From assembly GCA_013823855.1 (NCBI GenBank), contig PNMW01000058.1, forward strand, positions 62,001 through 126,000: a DNA stretch of 64,000 nt, given 5' to 3'. The notes beneath the pieces are model-generated. The model did not search any database, was not told the origin of the DNA, and saw nothing but the letters and a program-made list of their open reading frames with translations. Positions 9,593 through 64,000 of this stretch are shown here, one piece after another. The stretch is from Lysobacteraceae bacterium (GTDB taxonomy: Bacteria; Pseudomonadota; Gammaproteobacteria; Nevskiales; Nevskiaceae). The position numbers were made by a program, and so were the translations under genes. The number at the start of each line of letters is the position of its first letter. Positions within the stretch are counted from its first letter, which is position 1.

Positions 9593-10033
9593 TCAGTGCT
9601 CGCGGGCCGGACGCCGCGCGAGGGTCAGCTCGTAAACCCCCTTGGCGACCAGCGGCTGTCCGCCGGCAGCGCAGCGATAGGGATCGAGATACTTGTTGCG
9701 CGCCGGGTCGAACACGAAGTTCAGGTCCAGCGCTTCGAGCAGCCTGACCAGGGTCGGGCCATCGGCCTTGCGGATCACCAGATAATCGACCTCGCCATGC
9801 GCCGCCGCGCGGAACATCAGGTCGATCGGCCTGCCGACGTCGCTGCCTTCGGCGAACACCCAGCCGGTATCGGCGTAGCGGCTCCAGCGCAGCGGTTCGG
9901 CGTACAGGTTGCGGATCGCCATCGCGACGATCTCGACCTTGCCGAGCGGGTCGAAATGCGGCGCGTCCCAGGTGTTGAACGGGCCGAATTCGGGCGAGGC
10001 GCGGTACAGCATCAGTTCTGCAGGTCGGGTCAT
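9593..10033 (-). CDS. conserved-looking protein of unknown function downstream of fumC
   Basis: A 146-residue soluble protein I do not recognise. No signal peptide or membrane segment is visible. Segments such as LMLYRASPEFGPFNTWDAPH and DYLVIRKADGPTLVRLLEAL look like a small alpha/beta fold. The start is 11 nt after the fumC stop, so the two genes are very likely co-transcribed. Composition and codon use match its neighbours. Confidence 0.75.
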   Translation of the reverse strand: MTRPAELMLYRASPEFGPFNTWDAPHFDPLGKVEIVAMAIRNLYAEPLRWSRYADTGWVFAEGSDVGRPIDLMFRAAAHGEVDYLVIRKADGPTLVRLLEALDLNFVFDPARNKYLDPYRCAAGGQPLVAKGVYELTLARRPAREH

Positions 10034-10044
10034 GTCGTCGATGT

Positions 10045-11445
10045 TCAGCCGCCGGTTCCGCCCGGCCCTTTGATACCGCCTTCGGTCAAGGCCGAAGGGT
10101 CCAGCAGCACGGCCAGTTCGGCCGCGCCCAAGGTCGTCTGTTCCAGCGCCACATCGAGCACCGCCCGGCGTTCGCGATAGGCCTGCTTGGCGATTGCCGC
10201 ACCTTTCTCGTAACCGATCACCGCGTTCAGTGCGGTGATCAGGATCGGGTTCTTCGCGAGCGCGGCCTTGATCGCGGCTTCATCGACCTCGAAGCCGGCG
10301 ATCGCCTGGTCGCCGAGCAGCCGCGCCGCATTGGCCAGCAGCGCGATCGCCTGCAGCAGCTCGTGGGCGATCAGCGGCAGCATCACGTTGAGCTGGAAGT
10401 TGCCGCTCTGGCCGGCCAGCGTGATCGTCGTGTCGGCGCCGATGACCTTGGCGCAGACCATCGCCACCGCCTCCGGAATCACCGGGTTGACCTTGCCCGG
10501 CATGATGCTCGAACCCGGCTGCAGCGCCGGCAGGCGGATCTCGCCCAGGCCCGCCAGCGGCCCGGAGTTCATCCAGCGCAGGTCGTTGGCGATCTTCATC
10601 AGGCTGACCGCCAGCGCCTTGAGCTGGCCGGACATTTCCACCGCCGCATCCTGGGCCGACATCGCGGCAAAGAAATCCGGCGCCGGCTTGAACGGCACGC
10701 CGCTGCGCTTCGCCAGCCGCTTCGCGAACTTCGCGGCGAACTTCGGATGGGCGTTGATGCCGGTGCCGACCGCAGTGCCGCCCTGCGCCAGCCGCTCCAG
10801 CCGTGGCAGGCTGGCCTTGATCCGGGCGCTGCCATCGCGGATCTGCGCTGCCCAGCCACCCAGCTCCTGATCGAAGCGCAGCGGCATCGCGTCCATCAGA
10901 TGGGTACGACCGGTCTTGGTGATGCCCTTCAGCGCCTTTGCCTTGCGGTCGATCTGCTTGGCCAGGCCTTTCAGCGCCGGCAGCAGCGCTTCCCGCAGTT
11001 CCAGCACGGCGGCGACGTGGATCGCGGTCGGGATCGTGTCGTTCGACGACTGGCCGAGGTTGACGTGATCGTTCGGGTGCACCGGCTGACCGGCTGCCAG
11101 GGTTGCCAGATGGGCGATCACCTCGTTGGCGTTCATGTTGCTGGAGGTGCCCGAGCCGGTCTGGAACACATCGACCGGAAACTGCGCATCGTGGCGGCCG
11201 CCGGCGACATCGAGGCTGGCGGCGACGATCGCCTGCGCCAGCGCGCCATCGAGCAGTTCCAGTTCGGCATTGACCTCGGCGGCGGTCGCCTTGATCAGGC
11301 CCAGCGCACGAATGAACGGCCGCGGCAGGGCGATGCCGGAGATCGGGAAGTTGTCGATCGCCCGCTGGGTCTGCGCGCCCCACAGGGCATCGGCCGGAAC
11401 GCGGACCTCGCCCATGCTGTCGCGTTCGATGCGCTGTCTGGTCAC
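10045..11445 (-). CDS. fumC: fumarate hydratase, class II
   Basis: A 466-residue iron-independent fumarase that converts fumarate and L-malate in the TCA cycle. Family landmarks are in order: GSGTSSNMNANEVIA, the NDHVNLGQSSNDTIPTAIH block, GRTHLMDAMPL, and the superfamily signature GSSIMPGKVNPVIPE. The length equals the normal class II enzyme. The start is a GTG (11445) giving MTRQRIERDSMGEV, which aligns with the usual N-terminus; the internal ATG at 11415 would remove conserved residues. Confidence 0.97.
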   Translation of the reverse strand: MTRQRIERDSMGEVRVPADALWGAQTQRAIDNFPISGIALPRPFIRALGLIKATAAEVNAELELLDGALAQAIVAASLDVAGGRHDAQFPVDVFQTGSGTSSNMNANEVIAHLATLAAGQPVHPNDHVNLGQSSNDTIPTAIHVAAVLELREALLPALKGLAKQIDRKAKALKGITKTGRTHLMDAMPLRFDQELGGWAAQIRDGSARIKASLPRLERLAQGGTAVGTGINAHPKFAAKFAKRLAKRSGVPFKPAPDFFAAMSAQDAAVEMSGQLKALAVSLMKIANDLRWMNSGPLAGLGEIRLPALQPGSSIMPGKVNPVIPEAVAMVCAKVIGADTTITLAGQSGNFQLNVMLPLIAHELLQAIALLANAARLLGDQAIAGFEVDEAAIKAALAKNPILITALNAVIGYEKGAAIAKQAYRERRAVLDVALEQTTLGAAELAVLLDPSALTEGGIKGPGGTGG

Positions 11446-58341: not shown

Positions 58342-59721
58342 GTGACCGCCATTCCTGAACCTTCGACCGTGACCGCCGAGACGCAGCCCCGCCCTGCCCC
58401 GGTGTCGTTTGCCCGGGCCTTCCGTTTCTGGCTGTGGCTCGGCTTCGTGTCGTTCGGCGGCCCGGCCGGGCAGATCGCGGTGATGCATGCCGAACTGGTC
58501 GAGCGTCGCCGCTGGATTTCCGAGCGCCGCTTCCTGCACGCGCTGAACTACTGCATGGTGCTGCCCGGACCGGAGGCGCAGCAGCTGGCGACCTACATCG
58601 GCTGGCTGCTGCACGGCACCCGCGGCGGCATCGCCGCCGGAGCGCTGTTCGTGCTGCCGTCGCTGGCGATCCTGATTGGCCTGACCTGGGCTTACCTTGC
58701 CTTCGGGCAGGTGCCGGTCATCGCGGGAATCCTCTATGGCATCAAGCCCGCCGTGACCGCGATCGTCGTCCATGCGGCCTGGCGGATCGGCAAGCGGGCG
58801 CTGAACAACGCAGCGCTCTGGGCGATCGCGGCGGCCGCCTTCGTGGCGATCTTCGTGCTGCACCTGCCGTTTCCGCTGATCGTGATCGGCGCGGCCGTGC
58901 TCGGTTTCGTCGGTGGCCGCATCGCCCCGGAGCGCTTCAAGACCGGCGGCGGCCACGGCAGGGCTAAGGCCGGCAGCGCGCCCAGCCTGATCGACGACGA
59001 CACCGTCGTCGCCCATGCCGGCTACCGCACCGCGCGACTGGTCTCGGTGCTGCTGGTCGGCCTCGCGCTGTGGGCCTCGGTGTACCTCGGGCTGGTCGCG
59101 AGCCTGGGGCTCGACAATCCGATCACCCGGATGGCCGGCTTCTTCTCCGCTGCCGCGCTGGTCACCTTCGGCGGCGCCTACGCGGTGCTGCCGTATGTAT
59201 TCGAATCGGCGGTCAACCAGTTCCGCTGGCTGAGCGCGACGCAGATGATCGACGGCCTCGCGCTCGGTGAAACCACCCCCGGGCCGTTGATCATGATCGT
59301 CGCCTTCGTCGGTTTCGTCGGCGGCTGGCAGACCGACGCGCTGGCCGCAGCACTCGGCCCGGGACACCGGCTGGCATCGGCGGCACTGGCCGCCTGCGTC
59401 GCGACCTGGTTCACCTTCCTGCCGTCGTTCGTGTTCATCCTGGCCGGCGGGCCGCTGGTCGAGGCGACCCGCGACTCCTTGAGCCTGACCGCGCCGCTGA
59501 CCGGCATCACCGCCGCCGTGGTCGGCGTGATCCTGAACCTGGCGCTGTTCTTCGCCTTCCACGTGCTGTGGCCCGCAGGCTTCGACGGCCGTTTCGAGTG
59601 GCCGGCGGCGCTGATCGGCGCGGCGGCGCTGGTCGCGCTGCTGCAGGCCCGGCTCGGCGTGCCGAAGCTGATCGGCCTCTGCGCGCTGGCCGGTCTGGCG
59701 ATCGAGTTCGGGCAGCGCTGA
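58342..59721 (+). CDS. chrA: chromate transporter, long two-domain ChrA
   Basis: A 459-residue ChrA-family efflux protein. Two homologous halves: SFARAFRFWLWLGFVSFGGP with AGQIAVMHAELVERRRW in the first, and FFSAAALVTFGGAYAVLPYV in the second, each with about six helices. Exports chromate or sulfate-like anions. GTG start at 58342. It stands alone; no chrB regulator is adjacent. Confidence 0.94.
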   Translation: MTAIPEPSTVTAETQPRPAPVSFARAFRFWLWLGFVSFGGPAGQIAVMHAELVERRRWISERRFLHALNYCMVLPGPEAQQLATYIGWLLHGTRGGIAAGALFVLPSLAILIGLTWAYLAFGQVPVIAGILYGIKPAVTAIVVHAAWRIGKRALNNAALWAIAAAAFVAIFVLHLPFPLIVIGAAVLGFVGGRIAPERFKTGGGHGRAKAGSAPSLIDDDTVVAHAGYRTARLVSVLLVGLALWASVYLGLVASLGLDNPITRMAGFFSAAALVTFGGAYAVLPYVFESAVNQFRWLSATQMIDGLALGETTPGPLIMIVAFVGFVGGWQTDALAAALGPGHRLASAALAACVATWFTFLPSFVFILAGGPLVEATRDSLSLTAPLTGITAAVVGVILNLALFFAFHVLWPAGFDGRFEWPAALIGAAALVALLQARLGVPKLIGLCALAGLAIEFGQR

Positions 59722-59751: not shown

Positions 59752-61122
59752 TCAGACCGCGTCCAGCGCCTGGGTCAGCCGCTGCACCGCGACCACTTCC
59801 AGATCGAGCCTGACGCTTTTCCGCGGGCGATTGGCTTCCGGCACGATTGCCCGTTTGAAGCCGTGCTTGGCGGCTTCGAGCAGCCGTTCCTCGCCGTTCT
59901 GCACCGGGCGGATTTCGCCAGCCAGCCCGACCTCGCCGAACACCACCGTGTCGTTCGGCACCGGCTTGCCGCGGAATGACGACAGCGCGGCAAGCAGCAG
60001 CGGCAGGTCGGCTGCGGTTTCCTGGATGCGCATGCCGCCGACCACGTTGGCGAACACGTCCTGGTCGCCGAGCGCGATGCCGGCATGGCGGTGCAGCACC
60101 GCCAGCAGCATCGCCAGCCGGTTGCCTTCCAGCCCCAGCGCGACCCGCCGAGGATTGCTGCCCTGGGTGGCATCGACGAGCGCCTGCACCTCGACCAGCA
60201 GCGGGCGGGAGCCCTGCCGGGTCACGGTGATCACGCTGCCCGGCACCGGCTGCTCGTGGCGCGACAGGAACAGCGCCGACGGGTTGCTGACTTCCTTGAG
60301 TCCCGCGTCGGTCATCGCGAACACGCCCATCTCGTTGACCGCGCCGAAGCGGTTCTTGACCGCGCGGACGATGCGGTAGCGGGAACCGACGTCCTGCTCG
60401 AAATACAGCACGGTATCGACCATGTGCTCGAGCACCCGCGGCCCGGCGATCGCGCCTTCCTTGGTGACGTGGCCGACCAGCACGATGGTGCAGCCCTTGC
60501 CCTTGGCATAGCGCACCAGCTGGGCCGCGCACTCGCGCAGCTGCGACACCGAGCCGGGCGCAGCGTCGAGCGCGTCGGTGTACAGCGTCTGGATCGAGTC
60601 GAGCACGACGAAGCCGGGCGTGGAGCGGCTCAAGGTATCGAGGATGGTTTCCAGCCCGGTCTCGGCCAGCACCGGCAGATCCAGGCGCGGCAGGCCGAGG
60701 CGGCGGGCGCGCAAGGACACCTGGGTCAGCGATTCCTCGCCGGTGACGTACAGCGTGCTGACCCGGCCTTCGAGCGCCGCCAGCGCCTGCAGCAGCAGGG
60801 TCGACTTGCCGATGCCGGGCTCGCCGCCGATCAGGATCACCGCGCCCGGCACCATGCCGCCGCCGAGCACCCGATCGAGTTCGCTCAGGCCGGTCGGAAC
60901 CCGCTCGCTGTCCTCGCCGCTGATCTCGTCGAGCCGGCGCACGGCGCTGCGCTCGACCGAAAAACTGCCGGCGCGCGCCTTCGGCTTCGCGGTCGTGGTT
61001 TCGACCAGCGTGTTCCACGCGCCGCAGTCGGCGCACTGGCCGGCCCACTTCGGCGCGTCGGCACCACAGTTGTTGCAGACGTAGCGGAGCTTCGCGCTCG
61101 CCGGATTCAGGGACTTGGCCAC
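59752..61122 (-). CDS. radA: DNA repair protein RadA
   Basis: A 456-residue RecA-like ATPase acting in recombination. The zinc finger CNNCGADAPKWAGQCADCGA at the N-terminus, Walker A GGEPGIGKSTLLLQ, the KNRFGAVNEMGVFAM motif special to RadA, and a C-terminal Lon-protease-like domain are all there. The frame is open to 61204 but the zinc-finger start is at 61122. Confidence 0.97.
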   Translation of the reverse strand: MAKSLNPASAKLRYVCNNCGADAPKWAGQCADCGAWNTLVETTTAKPKARAGSFSVERSAVRRLDEISGEDSERVPTGLSELDRVLGGGMVPGAVILIGGEPGIGKSTLLLQALAALEGRVSTLYVTGEESLTQVSLRARRLGLPRLDLPVLAETGLETILDTLSRSTPGFVVLDSIQTLYTDALDAAPGSVSQLRECAAQLVRYAKGKGCTIVLVGHVTKEGAIAGPRVLEHMVDTVLYFEQDVGSRYRIVRAVKNRFGAVNEMGVFAMTDAGLKEVSNPSALFLSRHEQPVPGSVITVTRQGSRPLLVEVQALVDATQGSNPRRVALGLEGNRLAMLLAVLHRHAGIALGDQDVFANVVGGMRIQETAADLPLLLAALSSFRGKPVPNDTVVFGEVGLAGEIRPVQNGEERLLEAAKHGFKRAIVPEANRPRKSVRLDLEVVAVQRLTQALDAV

Positions 61123-61274: not shown

Positions 61275-61757
61275 TCAGTTCGACGCCGGCTTCAACGGCG
61301 CGCGCAGCAGCACGATCACCGCGGTGATCAGGGTCACCGCACCGACCACCGCCGGAACGAAGGCCAGCGCACCGGCCCAGTTGCCCTCGCCGAGGCGATT
61401 GCCGCCCAGGGTCAGGCCGTGGTTGTAGCCGAACATGCTGAACAGGTAGAAGCAGAAATTGCCCCAGATCGCGATCAGCACGCCCCAGCGCACGGTCCTG
61501 GCGCCGCCATCAGCGAGCGCGAACAGGCGCACCACCATACCCAGCACGATCGCCATCATGCCGTTCAGCAGCATGCCCAGGTGCACGGCGCGCCAGCCCG
61601 CAGCGGTGCCCGGCAGGTCGTATTCGATGAACAACGGCACCGGCGAGAACGAGATGCCGCCGAGCATCTTGAAGGTCAGCATGAAGCCGCCGAGCAGCGC
61701 CACCAGCAGCGCCGCCAGTCCGTGCTTGATCAGTGCCGCTGAAGTGATGCCGGTCAT
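61275..61757 (-). CDS. styrene oxide isomerase (StyC)-like heme membrane protein
   Basis: A 160-residue protein with four predicted transmembrane helices. It resembles StyC, the integral-membrane heme b enzyme that turns styrene oxide into phenylacetaldehyde: IEYDLPGTAAGWRAVHLGML matches the StyC helix-1/2 region, and NGMMAIVLG, IWGNFCFYLF and GGNRLGEGNWAGALAFVPA match further on. His59, Asn65 and Tyr104 fall exactly one residue beyond the StyC His58 (heme ligand), Asn64 and Tyr103 (catalytic) as I recall them. No styrene monooxygenase genes are near, so the natural epoxide is unknown. Divergent from the metal-dependent hydrolase gene 80 nt away. Confidence 0.8.
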   Translation of the reverse strand: MTGITSAALIKHGLAALLVALLGGFMLTFKMLGGISFSPVPLFIEYDLPGTAAGWRAVHLGMLLNGMMAIVLGMVVRLFALADGGARTVRWGVLIAIWGNFCFYLFSMFGYNHGLTLGGNRLGEGNWAGALAFVPAVVGAVTLITAVIVLLRAPLKPASN

Positions 61758-61774
61758 CCCCTGTTCCCCTTGAG

Positions 61775-61803
61775 TTGATTTCGCCAGAACGCTGGCCTAG
61801 ATT
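61775..61803 (+). promoter_or_regulatory. candidate promoter for the metal-dependent hydrolase
   Basis: TTGATT (61775-61780) and TAGATT (61798-61803) are spaced by 17 bp, 35 nt before the ATG at 61838. GTTAAC (61806-61811), a palindrome just downstream, could be part of an operator in this divergent region. Confidence 0.5.
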
Positions 61804-61837
61804 AAGTTAACACTGTTCTTCGATTGTGAGGGGCGCC

Positions 61838-62758
61838 ATGTCCGAGCACTCGCAGCACCCGATGGATCACTTTCCCGTTCGCCCGCTGCGCTTCCCGCTG
61901 GGGGCAGGACAGCGGGTCGACGTGGTCTGGAGCCGCACCCGGCCTGCATTCTCGGTGTTCCTCAATGCGCTGGCGATGCACGTCCCGCATTTCGAACGCT
62001 ATCTGGTGACGTCGCTGCGCAAGGCGCGCGAGCAGATCACCGATCCGAAGCTCAGGCGCGACGTCACCGCGATCATCGGCCAGGAAGCGAACCACTCGCA
62101 TAACCTCACCGCGTTCAACCAGCACCTGCGCGCCCGCTATCCGGACGTGGTGGCGATCGACGACGCCTCGATCGCCTGGTTCGAGCAGCATGCCGCGACG
62201 GACACGATGAAGCAGCGGATCGGCTTCACCGCCGGCTACGAGACCTTCACCTTCCTCGCCGGCATGATCATCCTGCAGCACCACGACCGCTGGTTCGCCG
62301 ATGCCGACCCGATGATGAAAGCGCTCTGGGTCTGGCATCAGGTCGAGGAGATCGAGCACGGCGCGGTCGCCTTCGAGGTCTGGCAGCACCTGTTTGGTTC
62401 GCACGAGTGGTACCGCAAGTGGATGATCCTCAAGGCCGCGCTGCACATCGCCGGGGAAACCATCCGCCTCTATCCACGCATGGCCCGCCATGAAGGCTGG
62501 CTGCGCTCGCCGTGGCAGGCGATCAAGACCTTGGCCTTCGGCGGCGAGATGCTCGGCCGCCTGTTCATCGCCGCCCTGCCGGTGTTCAAGCGCAATTACC
62601 ACCCGCGCCGGCATCCGATCGCGACCACCGAACAGAACCCGATCCAGATCGCCTGGCGGCGCTACGAAGCCGATGGCGGCGACGTGCTGGCGATCGACCA
62701 CGCGAAGCTGGCGAGGATGCTGCGGATCCCGCCGCAGGAAGCCCGCACGGCGGGCTGA
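61838..62758 (+). CDS. PF10118-type predicted metal-dependent hydrolase (ferritin-like diiron fold)
   Basis: A 306-residue protein of the predicted metal-dependent hydrolase family. Metal ligands are suggested by GQEANHSHNLTAFN (Glu, His), ETFTFLAGMIIL (Glu) and HQVEEIEHGAVAFEVW (Glu and His), as in di-iron ferritin-like folds. A GAGGGG box precedes the ATG at 61838; the GTG at 61826 is a weaker alternative. Reaction and substrate are unknown. It is divergent from the StyC-like gene, suggesting shared regulation. Confidence 0.87.
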   Translation: MSEHSQHPMDHFPVRPLRFPLGAGQRVDVVWSRTRPAFSVFLNALAMHVPHFERYLVTSLRKAREQITDPKLRRDVTAIIGQEANHSHNLTAFNQHLRARYPDVVAIDDASIAWFEQHAATDTMKQRIGFTAGYETFTFLAGMIILQHHDRWFADADPMMKALWVWHQVEEIEHGAVAFEVWQHLFGSHEWYRKWMILKAALHIAGETIRLYPRMARHEGWLRSPWQAIKTLAFGGEMLGRLFIAALPVFKRNYHPRRHPIATTEQNPIQIAWRRYEADGGDVLAIDHAKLARMLRIPPQEARTAG

Positions 62759-62791: not shown

Positions 62792-64000
62792 TTGAGCAAG
62801 CCGCCCACCCTGCCGATCCTGCTGTCGCCGCCGCTGCCCGCGGAGGCCGGCGCGCGGCTGCACTGGACTGGCTTGCCCGGCGCTTCGGCCGCCCTCGCGA
62901 TCGCCGAAGCCGCCGCCCGCCATGATGGCCTGGTGATCGCCGTCACCAACGGCGAGCAGCACGCCTACAAGCTCGAAGAGGAACTGCGCTTCTTCGCCCA
63001 TCCGTCGATTCCGGTGATGCACTTCCCGGACGCGGAAACCCTGCCCTACGACCCGTTCTCGCCGCATCAGGAAATCCTGTCCGATCGGCTGGCAGCACTT
63101 TATCGACTGCCGTCGCAGACCCGCGGCGTGATGATCGTCACCGCCGGCACGCTGCTGGAACGGCTGCCGCCGCGCAGCTGGCTCGATGGCCGCGCGCTGC
63201 TGCTGAAGGCGGGCGACAAGCTGCCGCCGCACGCCTTCCGCGAACGCCTGATCGCCGCCGGTTACCAGAGCGTGTCCGAGGTGCAGACGCAGGGCGAGTT
63301 CGCGGTGCGCGGCGCACTGATCGACGTGTTCCCGATGGGCGCGTCGGAGGCCTACCGGCTCGACCTGTTCGACGAGGAAGTCGAGACCATCCGGGTGTTC
63401 GATCCGGACACCCAGCGCTCGTCGGCCAAGGTCGACGAGATCCGCCTGCTGCCGGCCCGCGAGTTCCCGACCGACAAGGCCGGCGTCGAGGTGTTCCGCC
63501 GCCGTTATCGCGAATACTTCCCTGGCGATCCGGCGCGCTCGCGCATCTATTCGGACGTGTCGAAGCACCTGATGCCGGGCGGCATCGAAGCCTACCTGCC
63601 GCTGTTCTTCGCGCCGGAAACGGCCGCTGCCGCGACGATCTACGACTACCTGCCGGTGCACGCGCTGATCATCGCCACCGATGATCTGGACACCGCCCTC
63701 GCCGCCGAGTGGAAGCAGATCGAGGAGCGCTTCGAGCGCTACTCCGGCAACCTCGAACGGCCGCTGATGCGCCCGGCCGACCTGTTCGTCACGCCGGCAA
63801 CCGCGCTCGAGGAATTGGGCTATTACCCGCAGGTGAGGATCGCGGCAGCTGCCGACGGTGCCGCCGATTTCGGCTGCATGCCGATCGCCGGCAGTGCCGA
63901 CGAACTGAAAGCCGTCCTGAAGGATTCGACCAGCCGCGCGCTGTTCGTCGCCGAATCGGCCGGCCGTCGCGAAGCGCTGATCGGCTGGCTGAAGGGCCTC
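62792..64000 (+). CDS. mfd: transcription-repair coupling factor Mfd, 3'-partial
   Basis: The first 403 codons of Mfd; the frame is open to the right edge and continues outside. Mfd removes stalled RNA polymerase from damaged DNA and recruits UvrA. This part covers the UvrB-homology module: FPDAETLPYDPFSPHQEILS, GVMIVTAGTLLERLPPRSWL, TQGEFAVRGALIDVFPMGAS and DPDTQRSSAKVDEIRLLPAR are typical. The start is a TTG at 62792 (MSKPPTLPILL); no ATG or GTG lies near. The translocase and RID regions are beyond the window. Confidence 0.95.
   Translation, partial: MSKPPTLPILLSPPLPAEAGARLHWTGLPGASAALAIAEAAARHDGLVIAVTNGEQHAYKLEEELRFFAHPSIPVMHFPDAETLPYDPFSPHQEILSDRLAALYRLPSQTRGVMIVTAGTLLERLPPRSWLDGRALLLKAGDKLPPHAFRERLIAAGYQSVSEVQTQGEFAVRGALIDVFPMGASEAYRLDLFDEEVETIRVFDPDTQRSSAKVDEIRLLPAREFPTDKAGVEVFRRRYREYFPGDPARSRIYSDVSKHLMPGGIEAYLPLFFAPETAAAATIYDYLPVHALIIATDDLDTALAAEWKQIEERFERYSGNLERPLMRPADLFVTPATALEELGYYPQVRIAAAADGAADFGCMPIAGSADELKAVLKDSTSRALFVAESAGRREALIGWLKGL

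Follow-up and report, generated by a model that had tools for sequence, protein, structure and literature searches.

What might a relative of styrene oxide isomerase (SOI, or StyC) do when it is encoded apart from the styrene genes? The question is raised by a gene in the window, by which we mean the whole stretch of 64,000 nucleotides analysed here. This gene lies on the minus strand at 61275..61757 (read from 61757 down to 61275), starts with an ATG at 61757..61755 and encodes a putative membrane protein of 160 amino acids (160 codons). An earlier note on this DNA rightly took it for a real gene and gave no strand for it. Its surroundings hold a chromate transporter gene (58342..59721, plus strand), radA (59752..61122, minus strand), the start of an mfd-like gene (62792..64000, plus strand) and, divergent from the SOI-like gene, a member of family PF10118 (61826..62758, plus strand).

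The resemblance to SOI runs along the length of the protein, as the earlier note had stated. Among PDB sequences, phmmer matches it to the SOI 8pnu with E 9e-20 over residues 9–154 of 160 and to a second SOI, 30tw, with E 4.5e-17. The StyC model NF045734 is its sole NCBIfam match (103.7 bits, E 8.6e-30); this score lies under the curated cut-off of 150 bits for that equivalog, so that by score the protein falls outside it. No Pfam family matches at E ≤ 1, and a search of plasmid sequences returned seven records, all below 60% identity. An AlphaFold2 model, the structure prediction that the note had called for (pLDDT 79.4, pTM 0.74; built from an alignment of 23 sequences as a monomer without heme), has four long predicted helices, in keeping with the four-transmembrane fold of SOI. 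Foldseek finds 8pnu as its sole PDB match at E ≤ 0.001 (8pnu_A, E 7e-9, TM 0.77/0.80, 35% identity in the alignment). The loops are low in confidence, and residues 38–41 and most of 114–124 are poorly modelled, so the placement of His113 is not confident. A chance resemblance to SOI is ruled out by the PDB sequence matches together with the Foldseek match. As judged from sequence and model, the protein is an SOI-fold superfamily homologue of StyC and not StyC itself.

For residue numbering we used StyC of Pseudomonas sp. VLB120, taken from its plasmid sequence. The earlier note had paired His59, Asn65 and Tyr104 with StyC His58, Asn64 and Tyr103, and the alignment bears this out; in addition, Asn100 aligns with Asn99. 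In VLB120 StyC, His58 is reported to bind the heme iron and to be held by the main chain and side chain of Thr20, N99A and Y103A mutants are inactive, N64A and D95A are substantially impaired, and Asp95 belongs to the substrate network (PMC11374702). The SOI-like protein thus keeps a predicted axial heme ligand (His59) and the Asn65/Asn100/Tyr104 part of the substrate network, and has Ala20, Ala96 and His113 at the positions of Thr20, Asp95 and the propionate arginine Arg112, changes which the note had overlooked. His59, Asn65, Asn100 and Tyr104 are kept in 20 orthologues at 51–94% identity, so the match goes far beyond chance. Position 58 is His in all 117 distinct SOI-like sequences, and it seems probable that the protein binds heme through His59.

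The gene belongs to a clade of its own. In our FastTree phylogeny the window clade (28 loci, which give 27 distinct sequences because L051 and L052 are identical) is monophyletic with support 0.965, and the StyC clade is separately monophyletic, apart from it, with support 0.989; two genes basal to the window clade (L058 and L059, support 0.80) are excluded from the 27. This analysis sampled 80 regions around genome-search matches, some shortened by contig ends, with gene calls from a simple script that miscalled a few (e.g. L048 and L038); SOI-like places at G069:C248, G032:C41, G070:C124, G063:C208, G039:C19, G010:C156 and G013:C7 were left out. Throughout the window clade Asn64, Asn99 and Tyr103 are invariant (27/27). 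Position 95 is Ala in 27/27 and position 112 is His in 25/27 and Arg in 2/27, and these replacements argue against an isomerase. The StyC clade has Asp95 and Arg112 in 14/14 each, Asp at 95 having also served to pick out those 14 sequences. The published effect of losing the Asp differs between enzymes and assays: against the impaired D95A enzyme of VLB120 stands the Rhodococcus opacus SOI (heme ligand His57), whose D94A variant is reported to retain whole-cell activity and whose R111A variant retains heme with several-fold lower activity in membrane fractions (PMC12502698). By alignment, Asp94 of that enzyme is the equivalent of VLB120 Asp95, so Ala at position 95 need not abolish catalysis.

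Several other features of the phylogeny can be recorded here. The basal gene in a Zhongshania bin (L059, 7983–8348) stops early, with 100 amino acids called, and DUF4345 proteins are encoded near both basal genes, L059 and L058. A third clade, mostly with Thr95 (L067, L069, L070, L075, L081, L083, L086 and L100), adjoins a gene for a protein of 440–474 amino acids; in L069 this protein gives an NAD/FAD-binding match (E 1.6e-6) at its N-terminus, and a member of the same cluster lies two genes from StyC in L034. SOI-like genes are hardly rare in these bacteria, as the note had called the StyC family: at least one occurs in 43 of 100 genomes (the window's own included).

The source genome (3.87 Mb, 88% complete, Nevskia-like, its closest loci being 82–95% identical ones in Nevskia and gammaproteobacterial MAGs) holds four SOI-like genes: the window gene on contig C7, a true StyC on C8 and a tandem pair on C12. 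The C8 StyC (NF045734, 244.6 bits) adjoins StyB (241 bits) and StyA (739 bits), all three above their cut-offs, with a StyD-like aldehyde dehydrogenase near them (643 bits against a cut-off of 800). All 11 aldehyde dehydrogenase (PF00171) matches in this 88%-complete genome lie on contigs other than C7. The earlier note was therefore correct that no phenylacetaldehyde dehydrogenase is nearby, and correct about styAB on C7 if not for the genome, which has styABC. A nearby styrene pathway is ruled out by these placements, and identity of the window protein with StyC by its score under the cut-off, its separate clade and the true StyC elsewhere in the genome.

The tandem pair on C12 forms part of an operon (C12:58493–61077, equivalent to 6494–9078 of L035) of a TetR regulator (by Pfam), a PF10118 gene and the two SOI-like genes, the first without Asn99 and Tyr103 (Leu and Ser instead) and the second with Phe103. 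Similar SOI-like tandems occur in L085, L087, L093, L097, L099, L101 and L102, and the two proteins of such a pair may possibly form a hetero-oligomer.

Could the window gene nonetheless be a second, divergent SOI that still takes part in styrene breakdown while encoded away from the cluster? Such an arrangement would agree with the retained His58, Asn64, Asn99 and Tyr103, with styABC elsewhere in the same genome and with the SOI-like StyC2 reported in R. opacus 1CP (PMC7910268). We nevertheless consider it improbable, given a score under the StyC cut-off, a separate clade in which position 95 is Ala and position 112 mostly His, and a gene linked to PF10118 rather than to StyA or StyB. Moreover, in three genomes (G006, G015 and G042) the window-type gene is the only SOI-like match and is thus independent of StyC. 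The distinct clade fits the earlier note's suggestion of a relative that acts on some other epoxide.

The PF10118 neighbour, which the note had passed over, scores 162.1 bits against a gathering cut-off of 33.2 and so belongs to this family, named "predicted metal-dependent hydrolase". It encodes 310 amino acids if read from the GTG at 61826, and the ATG at 61838 is the likelier start. The divergent intergenic stretch (61758..61837) measures 80 bp to the ATG and 68 bp to the GTG; by eye, purine-rich sequences resembling ribosome-binding sites precede both genes, and a promoter scan of this stretch found no consensus sigma-70 site. The neighbour has a ligand-like set of Glu57, Glu87xxHis90, Glu139 and Glu174/Glu175xxHis178. 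In an alignment of 61 PF10118 sequences E57, E87 and H90 are present in 60 (one has a gap) and E139, E174, E175 and H178 in all 61, and E57, E87xxH90, E139 and E175xxH178 each sit on a separate predicted helix. This E, ExxH, E, ExxH pattern is what we take to be the ferritin-like diiron carboxylate ligand motif. Fold matches to the model are weak (no match better than E 0.1, and none of the 368 at E ≤ 0.001). The first from the PDB are an R2-like oxidase of the ligand-binding type, the R2 protein of ribonucleotide reductase and CmlI, an arylamine oxygenase; most of the best 50 of the 368 are R2-like, desaturase, CmlI or other diiron types, with ACP desaturases and toluene monooxygenase further down and a small number of proteins of the TenA or heme-oxygenase type among them. 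The name "hydrolase" thus appears not to be borne out, the conserved residues fitting diiron carboxylate proteins, and the neighbour may well be a diiron oxygenase fed by a ferredoxin. We know of no tested activity for any PF10118 protein. In two loci (L042, 7008–7905, and L151 of G015, 9962–10883) the PF10118 reading frame breaks near the C-terminus into two overlapping frames, perhaps through sequencing error or damage.

How regularly do the two genes occur together? In the 100-genome set, which includes the window's own genome and several incomplete ones, 21 genomes carry an orthologue of the SOI-like gene (54–100% identity; other SOI-like matches are at most 36%) and 23 carry window-type PF10118, defined by E ≤ 1e-50 (54% identity or more). 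All 21 carriers have the latter on the same contig within 5 kb, at distances from about 70 bp up to 4.9 kb, and only 2 of 79 non-carriers have it at all (Fisher p 1e-19, a value that ignores the relatedness of the genomes). Of these two, G021 has no SOI-like gene in its fetched stretch of 18 kb, and G070 has its window-type PF10118 on a 5.6-kb contig that stops about 0.4 kb short of the SOI-like position in its relative G064. PF10118 genes of any type average about 3.6 copies per genome, with 3 to 14 in carriers, numbers at which chance proximity to the SOI-like gene would be a few per hundred at most.

Six further carriers lie beyond the 100 genomes, and four of them have window-type PF10118 (25 of 27 carriers altogether): Zavarzinia marina, Zhongshania aquimaris, Zhongshania sp. 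BJYM1 and Neomelitea, with the gene not within 8 kb of the SOI-like gene in Zavarzinia (L049) and Neomelitea (L052). It is absent from Spongiibacter marinus (G102) and was not found in the 81%-complete G129. A class-wide draw of 274 genomes contained the SOI-like gene in two, the window's own and G129, and window-type PF10118 in the window's own only. The genomes of the basal relatives L058 and L059 hold no window-type PF10118, and no PF10118 of any type lies in the stretches fetched around these genes; a second SOI-like copy in G018 (L129) also stands without PF10118 nearby. Overall, the window clade is tied to window-type PF10118 in nearly every carrier genome examined.

This tie could in principle be vertical synteny around a relic that binds no heme or is drifting without function. 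The whole neighbourhood, radA and mfd included, is indeed syntenic in the window's genus, nine loci of the Nevskia core sharing these genes, the chromate transporter and others, and the low confidence of the model loops would suit a decaying protein. However, the pair recurs in other genera with different flanks and orientations, and the residues are conserved across the 23 aligned relatives. In each of the seven genera with both carriers and non-carriers (g1, g3, g7, g8, g10, g11 and g12; g1 alone has 11 carriers and 7 non-carriers) every carrier and no non-carrier has window-type PF10118, the two PF10118-bearing non-carriers belonging to other genera (g5 and g19). A relic is thus very improbable. 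The gene trees of the two families are also correlated (Mantel r 0.79, 0 of 2000 permutations, 24 loci; r 0.60, 0 of 5000 permutations, for the 15 loci that remain without the Nevskia core), a correlation that is confounded by organism phylogeny and has differing deep branches.

The neighbourhoods of the relatives give some indication of a pathway. Across the 28 window-clade loci PF10118 is the commonest neighbour, with a LuxR/MalT-type regulator in 11, a dehydrogenase in 6 and a ferredoxin in 6. In G064 (L127) six genes on one strand encode PF10118, an SDR, an enoyl-CoA hydratase, an AMP-ligase, an aldehyde dehydrogenase and the SOI-like protein, with a LuxR/MalT-type regulator divergent from the run. 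In Zhongshania L050 the SOI-like gene is followed downstream by an aldehyde dehydrogenase and then an AMP-ligase, and an aldehyde dehydrogenase is also close by in L053 and Zavarzinia L049. A ferredoxin-like gene adjoins PF10118 in L050, L055 and L131, lies a few genes off in L047, and in L049 and L052 is found near the SOI-like gene, with no PF10118 there. The L055 copy matches putidaredoxin, and Pfam Fer2 recognises the copies of L131, L047, L049 and L052; the one of L050, from the same cluster, has no Pfam match at 0.001. None of the nine Nevskia-core loci contains the dehydrogenase, ligase or ferredoxin clusters. DUF1329 and DUF1302 proteins are encoded near the SOI-like gene in L131, and DUF1329 also in L049; as relatives of both have been linked to monoterpene use in Castellaniella (PMC6394551), this proximity is a weak hint, by analogy, at a monoterpene-type substrate.

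Our main reading, to which we give a probability of about one half, is that the SOI-like protein isomerises a non-styrene epoxide, made by the PF10118 diiron oxygenase, to an aldehyde or ketone. In the order of steps that we propose, the PF10118 enzyme, fed by a ferredoxin, would activate O2 and epoxidise, at the membrane, a hydrophobic alkene. The resulting epoxide would then enter the SOI-like protein, most likely a trimer of four-helix subunits that carries heme b at their interfaces, with His59 as axial ligand, where the oxygen of the epoxide would bind the ferric heme acting as a Lewis acid. Tyr104, Asn65 and Asn100 would orient this oxygen, with Tyr104 holding it, and ring opening with a 1,2-shift (the Meinwald rearrangement) would yield the aldehyde or ketone. 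Rather than styrene oxide, the substrate is probably the hydrophobic epoxide supplied by the PF10118 protein, and in some relatives the carbonyl product may pass to the aldehyde dehydrogenase, a CoA ligase and beta-oxidation enzymes, being oxidised and activated as a CoA ester. Several of the results above count against this reading: no aldehyde dehydrogenase lies on C7, the Nevskia-core loci have neither the dehydrogenase nor the ferredoxin clusters, some carriers and the basal relatives lack window-type PF10118 or have it away from the SOI-like gene, G021 has it without that gene, and the PF10118 fold matches are weak.

The strongest result against an isomerase comes from more distant SOI-like paralogues, some of which are linked to PF10118 and lack Tyr103. 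In the fetched loci 24/27 window-clade genes have a PF10118 gene, of whatever type, at most 5 kb away, against 0/12 scanned StyC-clade genes (the scan leaving aside two plasmid StyC references, among whose annotated neighbours no PF10118 appears by name). The corresponding counts are 6/30 for other Tyr103 genes, 11/20 for Phe103 genes and 20/26 for those in which position 103 is some other residue. The partnership may therefore not concern Meinwald chemistry, which leaves room for an SOI fold that passes electrons through its heme to the diiron enzyme, or anchors this enzyme in the membrane, and is no isomerase. The 20/26 and 11/20 counts speak for such a role, as do the heme-ligand His in 117/117 sequences and the changed Asp95 and Arg112 of the window clade, and SOI itself has been proposed to serve as a membrane anchor (PMC12502698). 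Asn64, Asn99 and Tyr103, kept in 27/27 window-clade sequences, are not obviously needed by an electron carrier, however, and in several relatives the ferredoxins near PF10118 could carry the electrons. We regard a carrier or anchor as rather unlikely for the window protein.

It is possible, and we suggest it only tentatively, that PF10118 is a family of diiron oxygenases that form a working module with heme membrane proteins of the SOI fold, the distant, Tyr-less pairs using the heme for another role. The window clade would then be a styrene-independent route of the StyAB–StyC type that evolved with a different oxygenase, and in the distant pairs, which include the TetR–PF10118–SOI–SOI operons, the heme of the partner would serve the diiron enzyme otherwise.

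If epoxide isomerisation by the window protein is correct, it would widen the chemistry of SOI to other epoxides, make the window clade a set of natural variants for the roles of Asp95 and Arg112, and offer a lead to the function of a widespread family labelled hydrolase; the linkage points to a two-enzyme step in the breakdown of another greasy molecule. SOI-like paralogues have been reported before (StyC2), and the PF10118 linkage is new here. Among the literature matches listed, mostly judged from their listings, none gives a published link of PF10118 to SOI-like genes. Our searches also found none naming SOI together with "paralog" and none joining "predicted metal-dependent hydrolase" with diiron; PF10118 was named only in work on lanthipeptide proteases, and COG3687 was not named.

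How do these proteins compare with known systems? The PF10118 Metal_hydrol neighbour appears unlike its family name, since its conserved residues and weak fold matches are of the diiron carboxylate type. SOI is the enzyme in which the Meinwald rearrangement by ferric heme as Lewis acid was worked out, and the same account reports that a DALI search with it found no substantial structural relatives (PMC11374702). StyC2 of R. opacus 1CP, known here by description, is similar in being an SOI-like paralogue that shares a genome with a true StyC, and differs in that the excerpted description mentions no PF10118 link (PMC7910268). Closest is StyC itself (NF045734; 8pnu/8pnv, Pseudomonas sp. VLB120), with which the window protein shares the four-helix membrane fold, a length of about 160 amino acids and aligned His58, Asn64, Asn99 and Tyr103. 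Unlike StyC, it is 35% identical to 8pnu, scores under the cut-off and has Ala, His and Ala at Asp95, Arg112 and Thr20, and its gene stands outside the styAB cluster and beside PF10118.
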